64,000 bases of DNA from contig JALTBN010000091.1 of assembly GCA_027075325.1 (NCBI GenBank), forward strand, positions 74,430 to 138,429, written 5' to 3'. Source of the DNA: Thermococcus sp. GTDB taxonomy: Archaea > Methanobacteriota_B > Thermococci > Thermococcales > Thermococcaceae. The first letter of the stretch is position 1. The number at the start of each line of letters is the position of its first letter. The translations under genes were made by a program, and so were the position numbers. Below are positions 253 to 15,701 of the stretch, piece by piece. The notes under the pieces are model-generated. The model worked only from the letters and a program-made list of their open reading frames with translations. It did not search any database and was not told the DNA's origin.

Positions 253-993
253 CTAAACAGTCCTCCGGCCCCTCCCGTTCACGGGGTTCAGGAAGCCGAA
301 GCCGAGGGAGTTGAGTATCCCCATTCCCGCGTCCATGAGGAAGGCATAGAAGTCCCTGTTGTCGGGGGTAATCCTTGCTTCCAGCAGCTTCCAGTTCGAG
401 CCGGGAACGTCGAAGTAGCGCCCCCTTATGTTTACCCTCACGTAGACGTCAATCCAGCCCTTCTTCCTGACGTAGGGGACCATCCTCTGGAATATGGGCC
501 CGTTGAGCTGAAACGCCTCCCCTGTAAAGGCCGAATACCTCACCAGGGCGTTCTCCGTTATGGAGCGGATGAAGTGGTCGAGGCTGTTCTCGTGGTGGAA
601 GGTGAAGAAGCCCCTTCCCGTCATCGAGCGCACCACCACGGGGGAGCCGGTTATGAACCCCCCCGTCGGCCTGAGCTTAAACTTCTTCACCCCCTCAATC
701 CTCAGCGGCTTCCCGCCTATGTAGAAGCGCTCCACAGGCAAAAGCTTCTCGTAGAGGGTCTCGATGAAGCCCTCGTTGGGGGAGCTTATTACGAGGCTCT
801 TTCTGTCGCCCTCCTTGACGTCTACCCCTGGAAAGAAGCTGGAGAAGGTGAAGAACTTGAACCTCTTTGAATCGTGGAGCGAATCGTACTCCGTGCCCAT
901 CAGGAGGGAGTATATGAACGCCTGTATCTCGTGCTTCCTGTTGCCCCCCTGGGGGATGTCCCCCTCTGCAACGAAGTCAATCTTTATTCTCAT
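253..993 (-). CDS. cas6: CRISPR repeat endoribonuclease Cas6
   Basis: Protein MRIKIDFVAEGDIPQGG... with C-terminal glycine-rich NSLGFGFLNP motif; sits in cas cluster. Confidence 0.9.
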   Translation of the reverse strand: MRIKIDFVAEGDIPQGGNRKHEIQAFIYSLLMGTEYDSLHDSKRFKFFTFSSFFPGVDVKEGDRKSLVISSPNEGFIETLYEKLLPVERFYIGGKPLRIEGVKKFKLRPTGGFITGSPVVVRSMTGRGFFTFHHENSLDHFIRSITENALVRYSAFTGEAFQLNGPIFQRMVPYVRKKGWIDVYVRVNIRGRYFDVPGSNWKLLEARITPDNRDFYAFLMDAGMGILNSLGFGFLNPVNGRGRRTV

Positions 994-2197
994 CCACACC
1001 ACCCACGCCTTCGATCACAGCTTTGAGGGTTTCGAGAACCTCCCGGGCGGAGCGCACTATCTTCCTGGGCCTTGGCCTGTCTCTCTTCGGCTTCATCCCA
1101 GCATGGGCTATCGCGTTTCTCACCTCGCCGACCTTCAGCCAGGCCTTTACTAACTCCTCAGTCCACTCCCAGTTCTCAAGAGCTTCAACCCACTCGGTTC
1201 TCTCAACTTCGACGCCCTTCATCCTTCCCGCAAAGAAACCGAGGGTTCTCTCGGCCTTCACCCGGTTCTCCCGCTTAAGGTAGTCCTCAACGCCCAGCCG
1301 GGCCAGGACGATGTTTACTATGAGCTCCCTCTCCAGCTCAAGGGCGTTTGCGACGAGGCCCTTCTCGAGCATGTACTCGATGAGCCCGATCGTTTCCCGA
1401 AGGCAGTGCCCCGAGGAACAGGAGAAAGATAGTAGCCTCTCGACTTCGCTCAGGCTGTGCCTCAACGGCGGGAGGAAGCGGACTGCCTCCTCCCTGAAGT
1501 CGCTCAGGTCCTTTTCAACTCTGCTCGAGAGTTCCATGAACTCTGGGATTTGATTGAGGTGGAGGAGCGTCGAGAGGTCTCCAAGCACGGTGGAGTACCT
1601 CGAGAGAACCCTCGGCTTTTCTTCTCGACCCTCGCGGTGGATCCTCGCGTTGGTCCTCCTTATCGCCTCGCTCAGTCCCTCGGCCCTTCCATAGCGTTTG
1701 AGGTCCCTCAGGCCGTAGAGCCACTCTATGGCGTCGAGCAAACCGGTTAACTCAAAGATAGGTGTCACCACGCCATCCTCGTCCTCCCACCTGGCCTCGA
1801 AGGCCCCGTAGTAGATGCCCTCGACTTTAACCCCTTTTATCTCCACCAGGTAAAGGAGCGCGGGGAAGGAGAGGAAGGGTATGTGCCTGAAGGCGTGGGT
1901 TATGTCGAGGGCCACCCTTTCTCCCTCTCCCACACCGGTAACCATCGCCTCGAAGACCTTCCAGACGTCGTCCTGCCTCTTCGGTACCTCTATGAGGACG
2001 AATCTGGCGGGTATTCTTTTTCCAAGCTCCTTCCCATGAGCCTCCATCGCCTCCGCGGTAACGAAGACGATGACTTCTTCGGGTTTCAGAAAGTTGTATA
2101 GCGCTTCGGCCACGTACTCTGTTCGGAAGGTTTTTCCCCCAAGCGAGTACAGAACGGGCTGATATTTCCCGGTTCCGAGGAAGCTTAGGAGCTTCAT
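977..2197 (-). CDS. CARF-HEPN CRISPR accessory protein (Csx1/Csx2-like, putative cOA-activated RNase)
   Basis: N-terminal SFLGTGKYQPVLYSL and ALDITHAFRHIPFLSFPALLY are CARF-like; C-terminal RNAIAH matches HEPN RX4H. Confidence 0.88.
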   Translation of the reverse strand: MKLLSFLGTGKYQPVLYSLGGKTFRTEYVAEALYNFLKPEEVIVFVTAEAMEAHGKELGKRIPARFVLIEVPKRQDDVWKVFEAMVTGVGEGERVALDITHAFRHIPFLSFPALLYLVEIKGVKVEGIYYGAFEARWEDEDGVVTPIFELTGLLDAIEWLYGLRDLKRYGRAEGLSEAIRRTNARIHREGREEKPRVLSRYSTVLGDLSTLLHLNQIPEFMELSSRVEKDLSDFREEAVRFLPPLRHSLSEVERLLSFSCSSGHCLRETIGLIEYMLEKGLVANALELERELIVNIVLARLGVEDYLKRENRVKAERTLGFFAGRMKGVEVERTEWVEALENWEWTEELVKAWLKVGEVRNAIAHAGMKPKRDRPRPRKIVRSAREVLETLKAVIEGVGGVDENKD

Positions 2198-2206
2198 CTT
2201 GACCAC

Positions 2207-2473
2207 CTAAATCACGTTGTCAAACTCATCGGGAGGTCTTCCAAGGTGAAAACACTTCAGAACCTTATCGTTCGGGAGGGAGTAGAAGAGTATGGAATCT
2301 TCTTCCTCGTTTATCACCGAGTTGAGCTTCCTCTTTAGCTCGGCTATTTCATCCTCTCCCAGGTAGCCCTCAAAGACGCTGTTCTGCCTCCACTGGAGGT
2401 AGGTCCTGAGGATTTTATGGATCTTCTCGACCCTCTTCTCGTTGACGTCGTAAACGACGATGTAATACCTCAT
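2207..2473 (-). CDS. cas2: CRISPR adaptation protein Cas2
   Basis: MRYYIVVYDVNEKRVEKIHKILRTYLQWRQNSVFEG, typical Cas2. Confidence 0.95.
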   Translation of the reverse strand: MRYYIVVYDVNEKRVEKIHKILRTYLQWRQNSVFEGYLGEDEIAELKRKLNSVINEEEDSILFYSLPNDKVLKCFHLGRPPDEFDNVI

Positions 2474-3423
2474 TTCCACCACGGCCTGAAGGCTTTGTAC
2501 TCTTTTTCCCTGAGGAGGTGCCTCTTCAGTTTCCTCGCCTCGTAGTCCATCATGAAGCGGTAGCTCATGCTCCTCTTCCAGGGCTTGTAATAGACAGTTC
2601 TCCTCAGTGTATCGGTTAGAGCCGTTAGGAGCTTCCTCTTCCCCTCGCGGGAGAGATAAACGGCCTTTCCCTTTCGCGAGAAGTCACTCTTCGAGAAGAG
2701 GCCTTTATCGAGGGCAGTCTTTATTGTGGAGAAGACGTAGAGGGGCTTGAAGATATCAGCCAAATCAAGCGGTAAAGAATGCCTCCTGTCATTTACAGCG
2801 TGCAGGAAGCCTATTGAAGGGTCGAGGCCGGCCTTTATGGCCGAGGAAAAAGCCAAACCGTAGGTTATCGCGTTGGCGTAGCTTATGAGCGCGTTCACTT
2901 CATCTTCCGGGGGCCTTCTCGTTCTTTTGAAATTTTCTAAGCCTATAACCTCCCCAAAGTAGCGATAGTAATGGTTCCAGAGCTCCGCTTCCTTTCCCAT
3001 TATCTCATCGACGCTCTCACCATCAACCTTCACCGAGTTGAGCTTCACCGGGTTTATCCCCCAGCGCGAGAGCGTGAAGGCCATATTGTTCTGGATGCCC
3101 TTCACTATCTCCCTCGCCAGGTGGAGCCTCTTTTCAGGATCAAGGTGGTGCTCGGCCTGGCTCAGGTGAAGCCTTCCCCTAGGGGAAGCGTCGTTGATGA
3201 AGGAGCCCTTGTAGTCTCCTCGCGTGGTGTAAAAGTGCACAGGGATACCCTTCTCGCTCAGCAAATCTATGGCACCGCTCGTTAAGGAGACCCTCGCGAG
3301 GCAGTGGATTTCCGCTATCTGCGCCAGCGGGAGGGCCCTCTTTGTGAGTTCACCAACGAAGAAGAGCGAGCCTTTATCTCTCTCGAGTTTGCCGTGCTGG
3401 GTGATGAAGAGCGGGTACTTCAC
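2470..3423 (-). CDS. cas1: CRISPR adaptation integrase Cas1
   Basis: Cas1 residues and motifs (IPVHFYTTRGDYKGSF, NALISYANAITYGLAFSSAIKAGLDPSIGFLH); GTG start at 3423 (VKYPLFITQHG) fits better than the longer ORF. Confidence 0.95.
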   Translation of the reverse strand: MKYPLFITQHGKLERDKGSLFFVGELTKRALPLAQIAEIHCLARVSLTSGAIDLLSEKGIPVHFYTTRGDYKGSFINDASPRGRLHLSQAEHHLDPEKRLHLAREIVKGIQNNMAFTLSRWGINPVKLNSVKVDGESVDEIMGKEAELWNHYYRYFGEVIGLENFKRTRRPPEDEVNALISYANAITYGLAFSSAIKAGLDPSIGFLHAVNDRRHSLPLDLADIFKPLYVFSTIKTALDKGLFSKSDFSRKGKAVYLSREGKRKLLTALTDTLRRTVYYKPWKRSMSYRFMMDYEARKLKRHLLREKEYKAFRPWWK

Positions 3424-3807
3424 CACGCGACACCGGAAAAATAGAACGACGGCAGAAATTAAAAAGTTTGCGGGCGATGATGCCGTACCGAATGTATTTA
3501 CCTTTCTCACACCAAACGAGCTCGAAAAAGAAAAATATCACAAGTACCTACCCTTCAATGGGAGTTATATCTACCGTTCCCCAGCAGTTCCCGCAGGTCT
3601 AAGTGTCCGACGGGAACCTGAAAAATCTATGGGACTTGATACCAGCTGACGCTTTCGACACAGAATTGCACTTCAAAATTGGGCGACACCAGATGACTTT
3701 TTATATACGCGTGAGTTTCTCACGTGGATTACCGGAGTGTATGGCAATACGATGGTGCGAAATTTGTCTTCGATGGTACCCCTCCAAGGTTCCAGCGGTA
3801 TGTTAAT

Positions 3808-4824
3808 GTTTGCATTCTTCTAGACCTTTGCAAACACAACAGCGTGAACCCGTTCATAATTGATGCAAACCAGGCAAAACTGCCAACCGACGCAAAACTG
3901 TTTACACTCTTCTAGAACTTTGCAAACTTCACCAAGGTCATGGGACAGGTTACTCGAGAAACTCGCCAGCGGGTTTACACTCTTCTAAGACCTTTGCAAA
4001 CACTGGATAGCTCGAGATCTTCAGAGTTTCGAAGATCTGTTTGCACTCTTCCAGACCTTTGCAAACGCGTGTTAAAGAAGATAACAGATCTCAACGCACG
4101 GTACGGGAGAATTGCATCATGGAGTTTACACTCTTCTAGACCTTTGCAAACCCAACAGTAATACGCTTGAAAGCCCAAGAACTTGAAGAAACATACAGTT
4201 CACACTCTTCTAGACCTTTGCAAACAGTACGTCTCAGAAACCACGGCCGACACCCTCGCAACACAGTGGTTCACACTCTTCTAGACCTTTGCAAACTCGC
4301 CTCCTCATCTTTGAGGTGGCGATCCCCCGCGAGTGGCTCACCAGCGTTCACACTCTTCTAGACCTTTGCAAACGCTGGCAATATCCAGAACGACGAGGTC
4401 AGAAGCATTCTCTACGTTCACACTCTTCTAGACCTTTGCAAACTATTACAAAAGGACGCGAAAAATATTGGATCGCAAGACAAAACAACGTTCACACTCT
4501 TCTAGACCTTTGCAAACGTGGTCTCAAATCATTAGGCTTCTTAACATCCTCATAATCTTTCTTAACGTTCACACTCTTCTAGACCTTTGCAAACTCCCAG
4601 TTTACAGAAAAACCAGAAATAATAAAAGAAATTGAGGAACGTTCACACTCTTCTAGACCTTTGCAAACCATCGTCGAGACCCCCCAGGGGACCCTTCAGA
4701 TATCAAATCTGGAGGGAGTTCACACTCTTCTAGACCTTTGCAAACTTTGTCATCCGGGAGGTCTTCGGGGTCCCGGCCCTCCCAAAGTGGGCGAGGGTTC
4801 ACACTCTTCTAGACCTTTGCAAAC
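3808..4824 (-). CRISPR. CRISPR array 2: 14 repeats of 28-29 nt
   Basis: Repeats at 3808, 3900, 3973, 4039, 4124, 4198, 4269, 4346, 4416, 4490, 4567, 4641, 4718 and 4797. Consensus gttcacactcttctagacctttgcaaac; the five leftmost are degenerate. Spacers 37-64 nt, mostly 42-51. Confidence 0.98.
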
Positions 4825-5550
4825 GGTTCACTTTTTTGCCCCTTTAGGCGGGTAAAGAAGGGAAGAACTCCTATATAAGTCTTTCGGTTCTCTCCGGCCG
4901 GGAAAAACAAACCGTTAGAGCTCTTCTCCCAAACTAATACCAGTTGAAAAAAGGTAAGCTGGGACGTTTCGTGGTTTCTTCGACTAAGAAAAGGTGAAAG
5001 AGACGGTCATTTTTCTAAAACCGGGTTTTAAAAACATAAGTGTTCCGAATTTCAGAAATCTTTAGAGTTTGCTCCACCTATCTCCTCTGAGAAGGTGCAC
5101 TTGGCCCAGAAAACTCCTGAAAACACCCCGTTTTGTCCTCAGTTAAAAACCTTTCTGTCCCGCTTCTCCGGACCAGCGAAGACCTGTCCTTGTTTTTCTA
5201 TCCGATCCGGGCCGGGTTAAACTTCTGCTTACAAAAGCGTACATCAAATCACTCTTATGTAACGTAAAAATACGAAAGCCGTTCTCCTGGCCAATTTCAG
5301 GATTTTAAGCATCCAGCTTGAAAATCGTCTCACCTATCTCGCTGGAGGTTTGCCCAAAACCCTGAAATAGCCCTCCTTCGCCTTCTTTCCCAATGCACAG
5401 GTTTGTAAACAGGACGAGCCTTAACCCCTAACAGCCAGAAAAAAGCCCAGTTCCAGCTTTCTCAGCCCGAAGACGCTGGCCCACCTTCAGAAGAGGAAAA
5501 AGAAGGAAAGCCGTGAAGGAGGGATGTTCACTACTACCCATACTTGGGAA
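4825..5550 (-). promoter_or_regulatory. CRISPR leader with BRE/TATA for pre-crRNA
   Basis: No convincing ORF. On the minus strand cgaaagacttatatagg (4871-4886) is a BRE+TATA about 48 nt from the first intact repeat. Repeat degeneration at the opposite end places the leader here. Confidence 0.75.
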
Positions 5551-7002
5551 TCACTTCAGGACTTTAAAGATCCTCCCGTACTCAAAGCCACTCAGATAAA
5601 CCAGCTCGTTGCTCCAGTCGCTGGAACCTTTCCCCTTCCATACCCCGGTAAGCTTATACCTGCCAGCCCATATTTCGCCAAGGACGACCGCTAAAGTGTA
5701 GAGCGTGTCTCTCAAAGCCTCCCAGCTTCCGGAGTAGGTTTTACCGGGTTCAAGCCTAGCCTCGAGTTTGAAGGGAACCAGACCGCTCCCCATCAGCGCC
5801 TTCATCTGCGAGTAGGCCATGTCGTCCGCCGTCAGAACGACCACGTTCGCATCTTTCTCCTCTGCGAAGGCTTTGTAGTCGAGGGTTATCTTTGTGTCGC
5901 CGTGGAAGGTCTCCCTTGAGTCCGCCCTCTCAGCACCGAGATTCCTCATAGCATCAAGCTCCACCAGTCCCAGGGCCCCCAGTCTCGCCCTCGGCGTTGG
6001 TTGGTTTGAGAAGTCACCGAGTTCCCGGTCATAGGGCAGCTTGCTGTTTGCTATCGCTCCGACTTCCCTGGTGGCCTCATCGGAGTAAACGAAGTCAACG
6101 ATTAGGTTTCCCCTCTCCCTCAGCCTCTCTTCACCGAGAATCCGGGAGAAGGCCCTCAGAAGGAGAGCGTTGGTGTCGAAGCCTACGTAAAGTGGCCTTC
6201 CGCTGGCCCTGAGAGTTTTAATGAGTGAGATTAGGTCGTCCCAGTTCTCGAAGGGGGCTATCCCGCCCGCTATGAGGGCCTGCCTGAAGATGCTGAAGTC
6301 CCCGTGGAGTTCATCGTTGAGGTTTATCCTCGCGGGAATTCTGTACTCAGCCTCCTCATCAAGGCGAACCGTTCCGAGGGGTGCCTCCCTGGTCTTTACA
6401 ATCAGGGACTTCTCGCCGTCTATGTATAGGGAATCGAGGAGCGCCATCAGGTGTTCCCTTCTAACGGGGAACTTTCCGGGGGATTCCTTCCTTCTCCCGC
6501 CCGGCTTTATTTGTCCTCTCTTTCCTGTGAGCTCCTCCGTGGAGAAGAGCCTCTGCTTCACCATCGGCACCTCGAAGAGCAGCCTTCCAACGTACCTCGT
6601 CCAGTCCTGGAGGTGGAGGTACGTAACTTCATCGGCTCCTCCAGCCAGGGCCGCGCCGAGCAGGAGCGCGCTCATGAACTTCCTGCCGGGGGTTATGTCA
6701 ACGACCACCTCGTAGCCAAGCGATTTGAGGGACTTGATGGTGTTGAGGGCCTTCTCCCTGAACTCAACCGGATCTTCCTCCGTGAAGAGTGTCGTCTCAT
6801 CCGCGATAACATTTATCCCGGCTTTATAAGCCTTTGAAAGCCGTTCTATTAGTCCCCTGGCCTTTTCCAGCCGATCCGTAACCTTCTCGTTCCAGAGCAG
6901 ATAAACCTCGTCGGGAACCCATCCATGAACCTCGGCCAGATACCAAAGGGGGTTGAAAACGGCCTCGGGGGATGTTCCAACGGTAGTGACATAGGCCCTC
7001 AT
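5551..7002 (-). CDS. CARF-PIN fusion, putative cyclic-oligonucleotide-responsive nuclease
   Basis: N-terminal VTTVGTSPEAVFNPLWYL and DITPGRKFMSALLLGAAL (CARF); C-terminal acidic motifs VGFDTNALL, SDEATREVGA, VVVLTADDMAYSQM consistent with PIN. Confidence 0.82.
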   Translation of the reverse strand: MRAYVTTVGTSPEAVFNPLWYLAEVHGWVPDEVYLLWNEKVTDRLEKARGLIERLSKAYKAGINVIADETTLFTEEDPVEFREKALNTIKSLKSLGYEVVVDITPGRKFMSALLLGAALAGGADEVTYLHLQDWTRYVGRLLFEVPMVKQRLFSTEELTGKRGQIKPGGRRKESPGKFPVRREHLMALLDSLYIDGEKSLIVKTREAPLGTVRLDEEAEYRIPARINLNDELHGDFSIFRQALIAGGIAPFENWDDLISLIKTLRASGRPLYVGFDTNALLLRAFSRILGEERLRERGNLIVDFVYSDEATREVGAIANSKLPYDRELGDFSNQPTPRARLGALGLVELDAMRNLGAERADSRETFHGDTKITLDYKAFAEEKDANVVVLTADDMAYSQMKALMGSGLVPFKLEARLEPGKTYSGSWEALRDTLYTLAVVLGEIWAGRYKLTGVWKGKGSSDWSNELVYLSGFEYGRIFKVLK

Positions 7003-7041
7003 GTGATCACCCGCCGGATTTAGCTTTCTGAGGTATAAATG

Positions 7042-7057
7042 CCTTTCCTCGGAAAGG
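7042..7057. promoter_or_regulatory. Inverted repeat between divergent TATA boxes
   Basis: CCTTTCC-TC-GGAAAGG flanked by tataaat (7034-7040, minus TATA) and ttataaa (7058-7064, plus TATA). Confidence 0.7.
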
Positions 7058-7093
7058 TTATAAACTCCTGGTACTTAACCAGGTGGGATACCT

Positions 7094-8311
7094 ATGGGTG
7101 TGCTCGGAGACGGAATAAGAAAAGCTATCGCATCCGTCCTCTTGATCGCTATCCCTGCAACGATGTTCGTCCACAGACACCTTTCACTCCCGTATGCAGG
7201 TTACCTCTTCAATCAAGATCAGGACTTTGAGATTTTTACGATAGCCGCTTTAATCTTCCTGATAATCTCCGCGGTCCTGGCCTTCGGCCACGCGAAGTGG
7301 GGAATAAGGGAACCCGGAATAACGATCTGGGACTTCGTGCGGCTCTTCCTGTCAAGGTACTTCGTCGGCGAGCTGACGACTTCCCTCTACGGCCTTCTCC
7401 TCTTCGTAATCTTCGCGGTTATACTCACCGCGTGGCTCCCCGACAGCGTTGAGGACCACAACGCCGGCTGGACCATCGGCTTAGTCTTTTACTTCATTGG
7501 AACGATACTAATAACGGCCTGGGTTTTTCCGCCGAGGGTTGAGAACGGATTAGACGATGGCAAACCAGTGCCGGTTGACTACCTGGTTTACGCACTCAGC
7601 GCCCCCAGAAACTGGAGCAGGGTTAAGGAGATAGAGTGCGAGAGGTTAAAGCTAAACCCCGAACCCCTAAACATACTCCCCCTGTACGTTTCAATGTACT
7701 ACCACCTCAATTCACCCGATTCAAAAGATGGAAAGCTCAAGGGTGTTTACCTTCTCATCACGAAGAAACACACTGAAAACGGCAAAAAAGAGGGAACCCA
7801 CGAAGACCAAACGGAACCCCACCCGCTGGAAAAAAACGTTAGAGAAGAACTCAGAGTTTTCCTGGAAAGGGCCTCTGAATGCCTCGGTGTCAGGTTCAAA
7901 GTCCACTGGCCCTGCGATGAACCGGAGTCAATCGGAAACGGAGAAAGGGAAGTTTTCATCAAGTTCGTCTACGTTGGGGATGGGAACAGAATTAAGGAAG
8001 TCTACCGGAGCATAGCCAACTCGGAGATAGAGCAGAGAATAGACGAGAGCCTTACTGGAAAGGAGGAAGTTTCCTTCCACATCACGGGTGGCACTGCCGC
8101 CATAAGCTCAGCCATGATACTCCATGCCATCAGGGGATCCGTCCACGCCGAATACGCGAAGCAGGGCGTCTTCAACGTGGAACCAATCGAGCTCCTCCAG
8201 AGGATAGACCTAAACATCTTCGACCTCGATCTGCTGGTTAGGGAGCTCAGGGACTACTTTGAGAGGCAGTATCAGAAAGAGCTCATAAAACAGAAGTGTG
8301 ATGGCAGCTGA
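7094..8311 (+). CDS. Membrane protein with 4 N-terminal TM helices and C-terminal CARF-like domain
   Basis: Four hydrophobic helices in the first ~150 aa; C-terminal half has GKLKGVYLLITKKH and VSFHITGGTAAISSAMILHAIRG, resembling CARF motifs. Confidence 0.7.
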   Translation: MGVLGDGIRKAIASVLLIAIPATMFVHRHLSLPYAGYLFNQDQDFEIFTIAALIFLIISAVLAFGHAKWGIREPGITIWDFVRLFLSRYFVGELTTSLYGLLLFVIFAVILTAWLPDSVEDHNAGWTIGLVFYFIGTILITAWVFPPRVENGLDDGKPVPVDYLVYALSAPRNWSRVKEIECERLKLNPEPLNILPLYVSMYYHLNSPDSKDGKLKGVYLLITKKHTENGKKEGTHEDQTEPHPLEKNVREELRVFLERASECLGVRFKVHWPCDEPESIGNGEREVFIKFVYVGDGNRIKEVYRSIANSEIEQRIDESLTGKEEVSFHITGGTAAISSAMILHAIRGSVHAEYAKQGVFNVEPIELLQRIDLNIFDLDLLVRELRDYFERQYQKELIKQKCDGS

Positions 8312-8347
8312 AGCTTTTTAAAAATCAACCCTAAAAATCTGGAGGGA

Positions 8348-9631
8348 ATGACCATGAAAGGAATCCTGGGTAATATCCTGGGCTTCGTACTCCTTGCCTC
8401 GGCCAGCTGGTGGTTTTTAACCGGTACCAACACCGATGAGATGAACTTCGCCGTTGCCATAGGTTACGTTCTCCTCATCTTCGCGTGGACCGATTACAGC
8501 CGTCTAATCATCCTCACCCCCTTCGCCTTTGCGGCCATGCTGGGCTTTTTCCTCGGCAACATCGATGGTATCGTCTACGCCGCTCCCACTGGACTTGTTT
8601 TCCTGCTCTTCGCCGCCCTGATGAGTTCCAACCACGAGAAGGCCGCCACGCTGACCTTTGTTGCATCCCTGCCCGTTGCACTGGTGAATTCCTACTATTA
8701 CCCTGCCGCAAGCCCCGTGGCCTGGGCGCTCGTGGGCCTTATGGTAGCGCTAATAGAACACGCGGCCATCGAGGAGATGGCAGAGGGCGACGTCTTCATT
8801 ATTCCGCTCTACTTCATGGTGCTAGGCCCGATGGCATTCATCCCCCTCGCCTTCCAGAACTTCACGGGGCTGACGCTCTACGAAAGAAAGAGTGAGAACG
8901 CCTACGTTTATCCCGTTGGCCCGGCAATGTTCGTGGTTTCGGTTCCACTCTTCCTGATGGTCGGCGACCTTATAGAGTCAAAAAGTTTACCAGAATGGCT
9001 CTTCTACAGCCACTTCCATGGGATCGAGCACCCCCTTCTCGGCATCATCGGTGCCTTCGCGGGATACTTCTTGATACCAATGGCAGTTCATGGGATGGAA
9101 GCTAGTGAAGGGAACGAACTCAACGATGAAACCGGCCGGTTCACGTCGGCGGGAGCCGTTATGGGACTCACCGCCGGGATCATTGGGGGACTGGTCTCGA
9201 TGGCCATCATGGGGCTCATCGGTATTTACCTAGACGAACTCGGGTACAAGTACCTCGCAGACGTTTTTGTGCTCCTGGCTCTGGGTGCGCTGTTTTTTGG
9301 AGGTTTTGCAGCGTTCGCTCTGTTTTCCAGGCTGCACTACGAGGGCAGAAGCTCAATAGACCCGGTGTTATGGGTCTGGGGACTGAACCTGGTGGCGGCT
9401 CTCCTATCGCTCTTCCTACTGCCAACCGCGTGGGAGACCTTTCCCGATGGAAGAATTCCCGCCCTCGCCACCGGTCTCACGCTGGTATTTCTTTTCTATC
9501 TAACACTGAAGAAAGGAGAAAATCTGACCCTTATCAACAGATTGTGGGTCACAACGCTCCTGATCTCGGCTTTCCTTGCCGGCACCTGGGCGGGCTTCAA
9601 CCTCTGGTGGATGTTCTACAAATCCTCCTGA
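8348..9631 (+). CDS. Polytopic membrane protein of unknown function
   Basis: Many hydrophobic segments; starts 36 bp after the previous stop on the same strand. Confidence 0.75.
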   Translation: MTMKGILGNILGFVLLASASWWFLTGTNTDEMNFAVAIGYVLLIFAWTDYSRLIILTPFAFAAMLGFFLGNIDGIVYAAPTGLVFLLFAALMSSNHEKAATLTFVASLPVALVNSYYYPAASPVAWALVGLMVALIEHAAIEEMAEGDVFIIPLYFMVLGPMAFIPLAFQNFTGLTLYERKSENAYVYPVGPAMFVVSVPLFLMVGDLIESKSLPEWLFYSHFHGIEHPLLGIIGAFAGYFLIPMAVHGMEASEGNELNDETGRFTSAGAVMGLTAGIIGGLVSMAIMGLIGIYLDELGYKYLADVFVLLALGALFFGGFAAFALFSRLHYEGRSSIDPVLWVWGLNLVAALLSLFLLPTAWETFPDGRIPALATGLTLVFLFYLTLKKGENLTLINRLWVTTLLISAFLAGTWAGFNLWWMFYKSS

Positions 9632-11883: not shown

Positions 11884-12936
11884 ATGATGAATGAGGTGAA
11901 GAAAATGAAAATGAAGGCCATTGGTATCGTGGCCATTTTGGTGTTTGCCCTCGTGGCCAGCGGTTGCATTGGTGGAGGAGGTACAAGTTCTTCAACGACC
12001 GGAAGCCAGAGCCAGACCAGCTCCTCTAAATACACAGGGGAGATAACTCTCTACACCGGCGGAACCAGCGGTGTGTACTACCCGCTCGGATCAAAATATG
12101 CACAGCTTCTTGAGAAAGCAGGCATAAACGCAAAGGCGGTTACCAGCGGTGCCAGCGTCTCGAATGCCCAGGCAATCGGAAAGGGCGATGCCCAGGCTGC
12201 CATCATGCAGAACGATGTGGCGTATTACGCTTACAACGGGCTCTATATGTTCAATGGAAAAGCCATTAAAAAGCTCCGCGGTGTCGCCGCCCTCTACCCT
12301 GAGACCGTTCAGTTCGTCGTCAGGGCCGACAGCGACATAAAGAGCCTGCAGGACCTTAAGGGGAAGAAAGTCGCCATCGGTGCCCCCGGAAGCGGTACCG
12401 CCGTCGCTGCAGAGCAGATACTCAAGGCAGCGGGCGTATGGGACAGCATCCAGAAGGTCAACCAGAAGTTCAGCCAGGCTGCCCAGGCCCTCAAGCTCGG
12501 TCAGATTGATGCGGCGGTTATAGTCTCCGGAGCCCCGACCCCGGCCATCACTGAGATAGCCGTTAACACCCCGGTCAGGGTTCTCCCCATATCAGATGAC
12601 ATACTCAACAAGCTCAAGAACGAGGGTTACATCTTCTACGTAAGGCAGAACCTCCCGAAGGACACGTACAAGGGCATGACCGAGGACACCCCAACTGTTG
12701 CTGTTAAGGCTATCCTCGTAGTGAGCGCCGACCTCCCCGACAGCGTGGTTTACGACATGACAAAGGTCCTCTTCGACAACGTCGATGCCCTCCGCGCGGT
12801 TCACGCCAAAGCCAAGTACATCAGCCTCCAGACTGCCCTCGACGGTATGAGCATACCCCTCCACCCAGGCGCGGCCAAGTACTACGAGGAGAAGGGAATG
12901 ACCATACCCGACAAGATCAAGCCGCCCAGCGGGTGA
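11884..12936 (+). CDS. TAXI-family TRAP transporter solute-binding lipoprotein
   Basis: Lipobox LVASGC; TLYTGGTSGVYYPLGSKYAQLLEKAG typical of TAXI proteins. Confidence 0.93.
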   Translation: MMNEVKKMKMKAIGIVAILVFALVASGCIGGGGTSSSTTGSQSQTSSSKYTGEITLYTGGTSGVYYPLGSKYAQLLEKAGINAKAVTSGASVSNAQAIGKGDAQAAIMQNDVAYYAYNGLYMFNGKAIKKLRGVAALYPETVQFVVRADSDIKSLQDLKGKKVAIGAPGSGTAVAAEQILKAAGVWDSIQKVNQKFSQAAQALKLGQIDAAVIVSGAPTPAITEIAVNTPVRVLPISDDILNKLKNEGYIFYVRQNLPKDTYKGMTEDTPTVAVKAILVVSADLPDSVVYDMTKVLFDNVDALRAVHAKAKYISLQTALDGMSIPLHPGAAKYYEEKGMTIPDKIKPPSG

Positions 12937-13388
12937 GGCTTTTGAAAAAAGCCTTTCTTTTCTTTTTGATTGCCGTTCTGGCTGTTTTGGTTTTTCCGGT
13001 TAATGTCCTTTCAATTCACGATGACGATACTTCGTACGTCACGAGGCTGGGCACGGTCAGGGTTACCATAGAATACAACCACAGCGTTGAGCACAGCGAG
13101 GTGATAGAGATACTGACTGTCAACTCCAGCGGGATGTACGTTAGAAAGATGCTCTGGAGCGACTTCGGGGCGGGCCTGCCCGAGGACATCCAGGGGATGG
13201 AAGACGGAATGTACTACAAGGACGTTGACCAGTACCTTGGAAAAAGCCTGGACTACTGGTTCATCCCATTCAACAGGGCCAAAGTTATGGTGAACGGACG
13301 GCTCGTGGTCGCCCCAAAGCACGCCGAACTCGTGAAGTTTAGAATCAGAAGATGCCCTCTCATAATGGTTCTCCTAAGGAGGTGTTGA
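12933..13388 (+). CDS. DUF1850-like protein of TAXI-TRAP system
   Basis: Lies between TAXI receptor and fused permease; signal peptide plus VRVTIEYNHSVEHSEVIEIL. Confidence 0.7.
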   Translation: MRLLKKAFLFFLIAVLAVLVFPVNVLSIHDDDTSYVTRLGTVRVTIEYNHSVEHSEVIEILTVNSSGMYVRKMLWSDFGAGLPEDIQGMEDGMYYKDVDQYLGKSLDYWFIPFNRAKVMVNGRLVVAPKHAELVKFRIRRCPLIMVLLRRC

Positions 13389-13391
13389 CAG

Positions 13392-15701
13392 ATGGGAGAA
13401 GAGCTGGATAAGGCTGACATAGAAAAAGTGGAGGAGATAATAGAGAGAACGCGCAAACTACCGCCCGGACTCGAAAAGATAGTCACCGCCGCAGCCATCC
13501 TAATCGGGCTGTACGAAATACTCTTCATATTCAACTTCAACGGCACACTTTATACAATGTTCTCAAAGATGGGAATCAAAATCTCCGCGCTCCTGTACAC
13601 TTTCCAGACCCAGCAGGGTGAAGCGTTCGTTCTCGCCATGATACTCCTGATAGCGTTCCTTCTGTATCCAATAAAGAGAACGAAGGGACACCTCGAAAAG
13701 GTGGAATGGCACGACTGGGTCTTTATAGCCCTCTCACTGATATCCATGTTCTACCTGTTCTTCAGGTATCCAAGCTACGCCGAGTACGCAATGACCTACG
13801 ACCGGGACATATTCTTCGCTCTGCTGGCGATACTCGTCGTCCTTGAGGCGACCAGAAGGGTCATAGGCTGGGTGCTGCCGGCCGTCGTCCTCGTGTTCCT
13901 CGGGTATGCCATATACAACATACACTTCAACTGGCTGGTGTTCACGGAGCACATGTACCTTGCCAGCGAGGGACTGTTCGCCACGCCCCTGTACGTTATG
14001 ACGATATACGTGTTTGCGTTCATATTCTTCGGGGCGTTCCTGCTGAAGATAGGCATCAGCGATTACATAACGGAGTTCATGATAACGGTCTTCGGCACGA
14101 GACCGGGGGGACCAGCAAAGTCCGCAGTTATAGCGAGCGCCCTCATGGGGACTGTGAGCGGCTCCAGCGTCGCCAACGTCCTGACAACGGGAACCTTCAC
14201 AATACCCCTCATGAAGAAGGCGGGTTACCCACCGGAGATAGCCGGTGCCGTTGAACCTGTATCCTCAACGGGCGGTCAGCTCATGCCGCCGATCATGGGT
14301 GCCGCAGCTTTCATAATGGCAGAGTTTCTGGGGATTCCGTATAACAAGATAATAATAGCCGCCGTCATACCAGCCCTCGTTTACTACTCTGGGGTCTACC
14401 TTTTCATCGACAGGGAAACCAAAAAGCTGGGTCTCAAGGGCATGCCCCGCGAGCACTTCAAGGACATCAGATACTTCCTGAGAAAGAGCTACATCCTCCT
14501 GCCGATAGCGGTCATCACCGTTGCTCTGGTATGGGGAATCCCCGCACACATATCGGCAATTTCCTCGCTGGGCGTTGCCATATGGGTGGCGTGGATTTCC
14601 AAGGACGACATCCCGGGAAGTGAGGCGCTGTACGTAGCAGTTGCGTTAATCTCGACGTTCCTCATGTTCCAGGGCAAGGGTACGGCGATAATAAGCGCGG
14701 ATCTTCTTGTGCTGATGTCGATTGTCCTCATAGGCCTCGCGGCGGCAAGAAAGCTGGCGTACTTCAACGAGAAGCTCTACATCAGCCTCCTCTTCATGCT
14801 CTTCGTGGCATTCACTCAGTACATAGGGATGAACAGAGAAAACATACTCCTACTGACTGGAATCCTCGGCATCGTCTTCTCCCTCATAGTGGGCTACATC
14901 TCCAAGACTAGGGACGGAAAGGTGATGTACGCCGCAACGTATGAGTCAATGATAGAAGCGGGTAAAACGAGTACCGCCGTCATGCTGGCCGCTGCAAGTG
15001 CAGGCCTCATCCAGGGTTCCCTGACAATAACGGGGCTGGCGTCATCCTTGGGCTACAAGATGGCATCGTTCACCGAGGGCAACCTCTGGCTCCTGCTCAT
15101 TATCACAATGATATTCAGCCTTATCCTTGGAATGGGAGTGCCGACGACGGCCAACTATATCATAACCTCGCTTGTAATGGCACCTGCAATATACGCAGCG
15201 GTCTCAAACCTGGCACCCTATGACCAGCCAGTTCCGGGCTTCAGCACGGCCATAGCGCTTCTCGCGGCCCACTTCTTCGTGTTCTACTTCGGAATCCTTG
15301 CGGACATAACCCCACCCGTGGCACTGGCGAGTTACGCAGGTTCAGCCCTTGCCGGCGGAGACTTCTGGAAGACAGCAATGAACGCCGTCAGGTACGCAGT
15401 AGCGGGATACATCGGTCCGTACATCTACTTCACCCACCCCGAGATGTTCATCATAACTGTAAAGCACTGGACTCTCATGACGACGGTCCAGGTGATATAC
15501 GACCTCGGAGCAACGTTGCTCGTGATGTACCTGCTGTCAATAGCCCTCACAGGATGGTTCGGAAAGCACCTCAGAAAAGATGTTAGAGGAATTACCGGCC
15601 TGGTGGGGCTCCTCTCCGCCACACTGAACCCGATCATCGTGGGGGCTGGCGTGGTAACCGTTGTTGGGCTTAAACTTTTCGGGGAGAAGCTGGGCAGCTG
15701 A
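13392..15701 (+). CDS. TRAP transporter fused permease
   Basis: 769 aa polytopic; PGGPAKSAVIASALMGTVSGSSVANVLTTGTFTIPLMKKAGY. Confidence 0.93.
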   Translation: MGEELDKADIEKVEEIIERTRKLPPGLEKIVTAAAILIGLYEILFIFNFNGTLYTMFSKMGIKISALLYTFQTQQGEAFVLAMILLIAFLLYPIKRTKGHLEKVEWHDWVFIALSLISMFYLFFRYPSYAEYAMTYDRDIFFALLAILVVLEATRRVIGWVLPAVVLVFLGYAIYNIHFNWLVFTEHMYLASEGLFATPLYVMTIYVFAFIFFGAFLLKIGISDYITEFMITVFGTRPGGPAKSAVIASALMGTVSGSSVANVLTTGTFTIPLMKKAGYPPEIAGAVEPVSSTGGQLMPPIMGAAAFIMAEFLGIPYNKIIIAAVIPALVYYSGVYLFIDRETKKLGLKGMPREHFKDIRYFLRKSYILLPIAVITVALVWGIPAHISAISSLGVAIWVAWISKDDIPGSEALYVAVALISTFLMFQGKGTAIISADLLVLMSIVLIGLAAARKLAYFNEKLYISLLFMLFVAFTQYIGMNRENILLLTGILGIVFSLIVGYISKTRDGKVMYAATYESMIEAGKTSTAVMLAAASAGLIQGSLTITGLASSLGYKMASFTEGNLWLLLIITMIFSLILGMGVPTTANYIITSLVMAPAIYAAVSNLAPYDQPVPGFSTAIALLAAHFFVFYFGILADITPPVALASYAGSALAGGDFWKTAMNAVRYAVAGYIGPYIYFTHPEMFIITVKHWTLMTTVQVIYDLGATLLVMYLLSIALTGWFGKHLRKDVRGITGLVGLLSATLNPIIVGAGVVTVVGLKLFGEKLGS

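Follow-up and report, generated by a model that had tools for sequence, protein, structure and literature searches.

A Type III-B CRISPR-Cas Locus of Thermococcus with an HD-Less Cas10, Three CARF Effectors and an Unclassified but Conserved Membrane Protein

Introduction

The locus described here, from Thermococcus sp. (assembly GCA_027075325.1), is a type III-B (Cmr) CRISPR-Cas locus that is cut in two by the edge of the window, that is, of the 64,000-nucleotide stretch of contig JALTBN010000091.1 (positions 74,430 to 138,429) that was analysed. Beside an HD-less Cas10 and three CARF effectors, it encodes a putative membrane partner, a conserved and so far unlabelled 427-residue protein hereafter called MEM427. 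Very probably, these parts form one complete system, in which Cas10 acts as the signalling enzyme and MEM427 is a fourth component beside the three CARF proteins. The window would then hold the effector and adaptation half of this system. Cas6 is predicted to cut the array transcripts into crRNAs, the Cmr complex, whose genes lie directly to the left of the window, would recognise invader RNA, and Cas10 would respond by producing a cyclic oligoadenylate (cOA), most likely cA4. This messenger would switch on the HEPN RNase, the PIN RNase and the membrane CARF protein simultaneously, while MEM427 would most likely act as a membrane-embedded partner downstream of the CARF sensors.

Organization of the Locus and the Source of the Signal

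A search of the whole genome for the Cas10 palm domain, as had been proposed in a preliminary description of the window, gave a single match (PF22335, 2.5e-30), an 880-residue frame located on the same contig, directly left of the window. This cas10/cmr2 gene starts 564 bp left of window base 1 and belongs to a complete operon, cmr1-cmr6-cmr5-cmr4-cmr3-cas10, on the same contig and strand, the cmr names having been assigned by order, size and similarity to the operons of relatives. The GGDD cyclase motif (as AGGDD) is intact in the protein: GEVILAGGDDVLALLP. The operon and the window are joined by a CRISPR array that continues across window base 1, with four 29-nt repeats at -367 to -127 and three more at 1, 92 and 164, the latter being the right end of the array (1-193). 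Since the cmr operon and cas10 come next on the contig, the apparent lack of a signal source is an artefact of the window edge. Thus, the preliminary description rightly placed the source of the cyclic oligoadenylate outside the window; its remark that no cas10 or other interference gene is visible there is literally true for cas10, but merely because the window ends where it does. Its further reading, an adaptation-only cas cluster with CARF effectors that draw their ligand from another system, is extremely improbable: although interference genes are indeed missing from its initial 16 kb of sequence, a complete cmr operon with an intact cyclase motif stands immediately upstream, which refutes this reading unless the contig is misassembled. 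Every part of the locus discussed here lies on a single 168-kb contig of an assembly of 2.30 Mb in 135 contigs, with an estimated contamination of 5.7%.

Within the window, the array end is followed by four genes on the minus strand: cas6 (253-1002; TIGR01877 2e-26, PADLOC Cas6b 2e-56), encoding the pre-crRNA endoribonuclease, a gene for a Csx1-type CARF2-HEPN ribonuclease (977-2206), cas2 (2207-2482; PF09827 3e-23) and cas1 (2470-3510; PF01867 1e-64, PADLOC Cas1 4e-87). The NCBIfam models for cas6 and cas2 and the general model for cas1 all exceed their cut-offs. A second array (3808-4825) comprises 14 repeats, mostly of 28 nt (GTTCACACTCTTCTAGACCTTTGCAAAC), the leftmost copies of which are degenerate; matching of the array against phages gave zero matches. 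The genes for a CARF-PIN effector (5551-7002, minus strand), a CARF-TM effector (7094-8311, plus strand) and MEM427 (8348-9631, plus strand) complete the region. The cas6, cas1 and cas2 genes and the arrays had been named correctly, as borne out by open frames, profile matches and two array segments.

Just past the CRISPR region, at 11884-15701, frames resembling by eye a TAXI/TRAP-type transporter (solute receptor and large membrane component) are found. Elsewhere in the assembly, a short contig (G000:C115:1-4033, L006) carries a fragment of a separate type I-like cluster with cas3, cas4, cas1 and cas2, which may be either part of the genome or contamination.

Loss of the Cas10 Nuclease Site

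The HD nuclease domain is an optional part of Cas10 in type III-B, and it is not recognised here. When 12 Cmr2 sequences from Thermococcaceae are aligned, GGDD is conserved at the cyclase site throughout, and not one of them displays the N-terminal His-Asp pair, the row of genome G022 starting too late to cover this region. In addition, the alignable part of 4w8y, a full-length Cmr2 of solved structure, starts no earlier than its residue 199. Such loss is common, the HD nuclease being kept in 39% of type III loci (PMC11229360). As Cas10 is devoid of the His-Asp nuclease pair, the defence provided by this system probably rests on signalling, and the loss fits a system that depends on its effectors.

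Three CARF Effectors with Different Predicted Outputs

Three CARF proteins with HEPN, PIN and membrane outputs had been predicted in this region, and PADLOC profiles match all three. The first (CARF2-CARF_HEPN, 1.3e-89) is encoded at 977-2206 if read from a GTG, or at 977-2197 from the next ATG. It also matches NCBIfam TIGR02221 (1e-28), contains a CRISPR_DxTHG motif, and has retained the HEPN catalytic motif R-x4-H as RNAIAH at residue 363. The second, a predicted RNase, matches CARF_m1-CARF_PIN over its full length (5.1e-200), and D276, E313, D369 and D393 of its PIN domain are invariant in 14 homologues. Its CARF domain weakly resembles Crn1-type/SSO2081-type ring nucleases of known structure, and this likeness to the SSO2081 type would favour cA4 as the messenger. 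According to a published survey, effectors within one locus typically share one activator, and no cA3- or cA6-activated effectors were found in archaeal loci (PMC11229360). The third protein matches CARF8-CARF_TM (2.9e-128), and hydropathy together with the profile indicates about four N-terminal transmembrane helices followed by a C-terminal CARF domain.

Three effectors in one locus are rare in that survey, which gives three examples, loci with Csx1, Can1-2 and Cam1 (PMC11229360); within Thermococcaceae, however, such a trio is recurrent. Csx1, CARF-PIN and CARF-TM occur together in G072, G022 and G023, with Csx1 lying between cmr3 and cmr4, and G037 has a CARF3 Csx1-like protein along with CARF-PIN and CARF-TM. 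The present genome lacks the cmr-internal Csx1. Another protein, of the CARF2-HEPN type, is encoded between cas6 and cas2 and looks like a replacement of the internal Csx1 acquired through horizontal transfer. As a full-length gene, it is found in only one other Thermococcaceae genome (G012). Being nearly unique to the present genome, it may be a recent arrival that is not tuned to the same messenger as the other effectors.

CARF-PIN matches are spread over 81 of the 94 Thermococcaceae genomes, most of them being CARF-only or PIN-only proteins, as in a chromosomal cluster of DUF2284, a stand-alone CARF protein (CARF_m1) and a PIN protein. This cluster, present in G000:C95 (L181:4594-6501) and also in L182, L183, L184 and L185, has no cas genes near it in the stretches examined, and some of the genomes that carry it (G019, G024) gave no Cmr2 match. 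Among non-CRISPR genes, it is the nearest relative of the CARF-PIN effector. CARF-TM, in turn, which is reduced to a remnant in G014, adjoins or lies near a conserved ABCE1/RLI-type gene (592-595 residues) in several relatives (L103, L111, L115, L102, L105 and L179), the family of this neighbour having been checked in L103 only. This position suggests a preferred insertion site of the effector island.

Distribution and Genomic Context of MEM427

The preliminary description overlooked this fourth gene, the least explained part of its own interval. MEM427 is a polytopic membrane protein with about 12-13 transmembrane segments, and it has no match in Pfam, NCBIfam, PADLOC or the PDB; its family members gave chance-level matches only against PHROGs and Pfam. 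Homologues outside Thermococcaceae were not confirmed in collections of genomes and of viral and plasmid contigs, in which near relatives may be absent. Our literature search brought up no paper that links a polytopic protein, or one resembling prepilin peptidases, to type III loci as a partner; an earlier mention may exist.

By profile search, MEM427 is present in 16 of 94 Thermococcaceae genomes, a count that excludes three weak single-sequence matches unconfirmed by the profile. CARF-PIN accompanies it in all 16 (in two as fragments; Fisher 4e-14) and CARF-TM in 15 (Fisher 6e-13), both values being uncorrected for kinship. A Cmr2-type cas10 is found in 14 of these genomes, and the remaining two, G017 and G006, possess a different Cas10, that of G017 being of the Csm1 type. 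In 12 of the 16, no more than 20 kb separate MEM427 from cmr or csm genes, and it adjoins CARF-PIN, CARF-TM or cas6. At least seven distinct combinations of gene order and direction are seen around it, such as (signs denoting strands) PIN-/TM+/MEM+ in the present genome (G000) and G072, MEM+/PIN+/TM- in G037, G045, G040 and G017, MEM-/PIN+/TM+ in G042, PIN+/MEM-/TM- in G023 and cas6+/MEM+ in G018. Such variety argues that the linkage is not one inherited block. Four pairs of MEM427 genes have dN/dS ratios below 1, and co-occurrence, adjacency and dN/dS together support a functional link between MEM427 and the type III module. CARF-PIN and CARF-TM occur without MEM427 in G016, and CARF-PIN alone in G080; thus, MEM427 is not obligatory. 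In G032 (L105:13077-15653), two divergent MEM427 paralogues are encoded side by side, next to a shortened CARF-PIN, possibly as a duplication or a recombination remnant.

Possible Roles of MEM427

Across the 16 aligned members, which diverge down to 24% identity, 21 columns are invariant and include W47, D49, G147, D148, P189 and V190. D49 follows a transmembrane helix, G147-D148 lies within an E/G-GD motif, and a PVxPA motif is located downstream of it. Two invariant membrane aspartates, the second in a GD, are thus common to all 16 members, while the canonical G-x-G-D is seen in some of them only. Homology of MEM427 to the A24 prepilin peptidases finds no support in profile tests: no member matches Pfam A24 (PF01478/PF06847), an hhalign comparison with 31 thermococcal A24 peptidases yielded a probability of 2% in a spurious register, and hmmsearch scores against A24 were non-significant and near those of reversed decoys. 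The archaeal SPP family (PF06550) likewise gave no match to the 16 members in the Pfam scan.

What MEM427 does can be read in several ways. It may be a channel, pore or transporter subunit that is opened by CARF-TM, leading to membrane depolarisation. Its many transmembrane segments and its co-directional position with CARF-TM in G000, G072 and G023 are in line with this, and depolarisation is how Cam1 and Cap1, the known CARF effectors of the membrane, act (PMC10808066, PMC12642688). However, Cam1 and Cap1 act alone, as tetramers, MEM427 is without similarity to known channels, and in five genomes (G037, G045, G040, G017, G022) it abuts CARF-PIN, in the same direction, and not CARF-TM, so that we regard a channel role as possible but doubtful. 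We consider it rather unlikely that MEM427 is a mere passenger of the island, or serves there in defence or immunity independently of the type III system. Genes do gather in CRISPR islands, and in G006 MEM427 is solitary, far from cas genes and without CARF-TM. Moreover, a core-only (N-terminal) relative in G042 (contig 2, L174:5220-7011) stands beside a resolvase and is therefore probably carried by a mobile element. Nevertheless, every genome with MEM427 also possesses CARF-PIN and a Cas10, and effectors or cas6 adjoin it in at least 7 different gene orders.

If MEM427 were a membrane aspartyl protease of the GxGD type, akin to prepilin peptidases or presenilins and activated through the CARF proteins, it would convert the alarm signal into cleavage of membrane proteins. 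D49, G147-D148 and PVxPA are consistent with such an enzyme, as is the G-S-G-D of the mobile-element relative at the position of the second aspartate, and the thermococcal A24 peptidases are of similar length, with TD..., ASGDV... and PFAPA. On the other hand, the two aspartates of MEM427 are 99 residues apart, with more transmembrane segments between them than in A24 enzymes. A single-sequence AlphaFold model of MEM427 reached a pLDDT of 49, too low to bear on the fold. Given the failed profile tests against prepilin peptidases, a GxGD protease identity is a guess, and an unlikely one. It is in a speculative spirit, and with low expectation, that we also put forward a wider proposal, namely that MEM427 is a new type III effector component, a di-aspartate protease or other multi-pass membrane enzyme driven by cOA via CARF-TM or CARF-PIN, which would endow the HD-less Cas10 system with RNA decay and membrane attack at once.

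Significance and Comparison with Known Systems

An effector trio behind a Cas10 without a DNA-cutting site provides a natural test of how a single messenger is shared among several cOA effectors. The membrane gene MEM427 is linked to type III systems and unmatched in the family libraries searched, with clear co-occurrence and defined invariant residues; if it were a signal-driven membrane protease or channel, it would represent a new output for type III immunity.

Like the type III-B Cmr systems, e.g., that of Pyrococcus furiosus, the present locus has cmr1-6 with a GGDD Cas10, cas6, arrays and a Csx1-type CARF-HEPN effector, but it differs in the missing HD pair of Cas10 and in having two further CARF effectors and MEM427. 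With the A24 prepilin peptidases and presenilin-type GxGD proteases, MEM427 has in common two invariant aspartates at the membrane edge, the second in a GD, and the PVxPA motif; it differs from A24 enzymes in its longer Asp-Asp spacing and in showing no significant profile similarity. With the multi-effector loci of the published survey (Csx1, Can1-2, Cam1; PMC11229360), the locus shares three effectors of different output, but it has CARF-PIN in lieu of Can1-2, and its combination is found repeatedly within one archaeal family. The CARF-PIN protein, with its full-length match and all four PIN acids, is a member of the CARF_m1 CARF-PIN family (PADLOC PDLC01973) without evident difference. The CARF-TM protein shares N-terminal transmembrane helices and a CARF domain with the CARF8 CARF-TM family (PADLOC PDLC01944), functionally Cam1/Cap1, but it has about four such helices, as compared with one in Cam1 and two in Cap1, and, unlike these, it is usually neighboured by MEM427.
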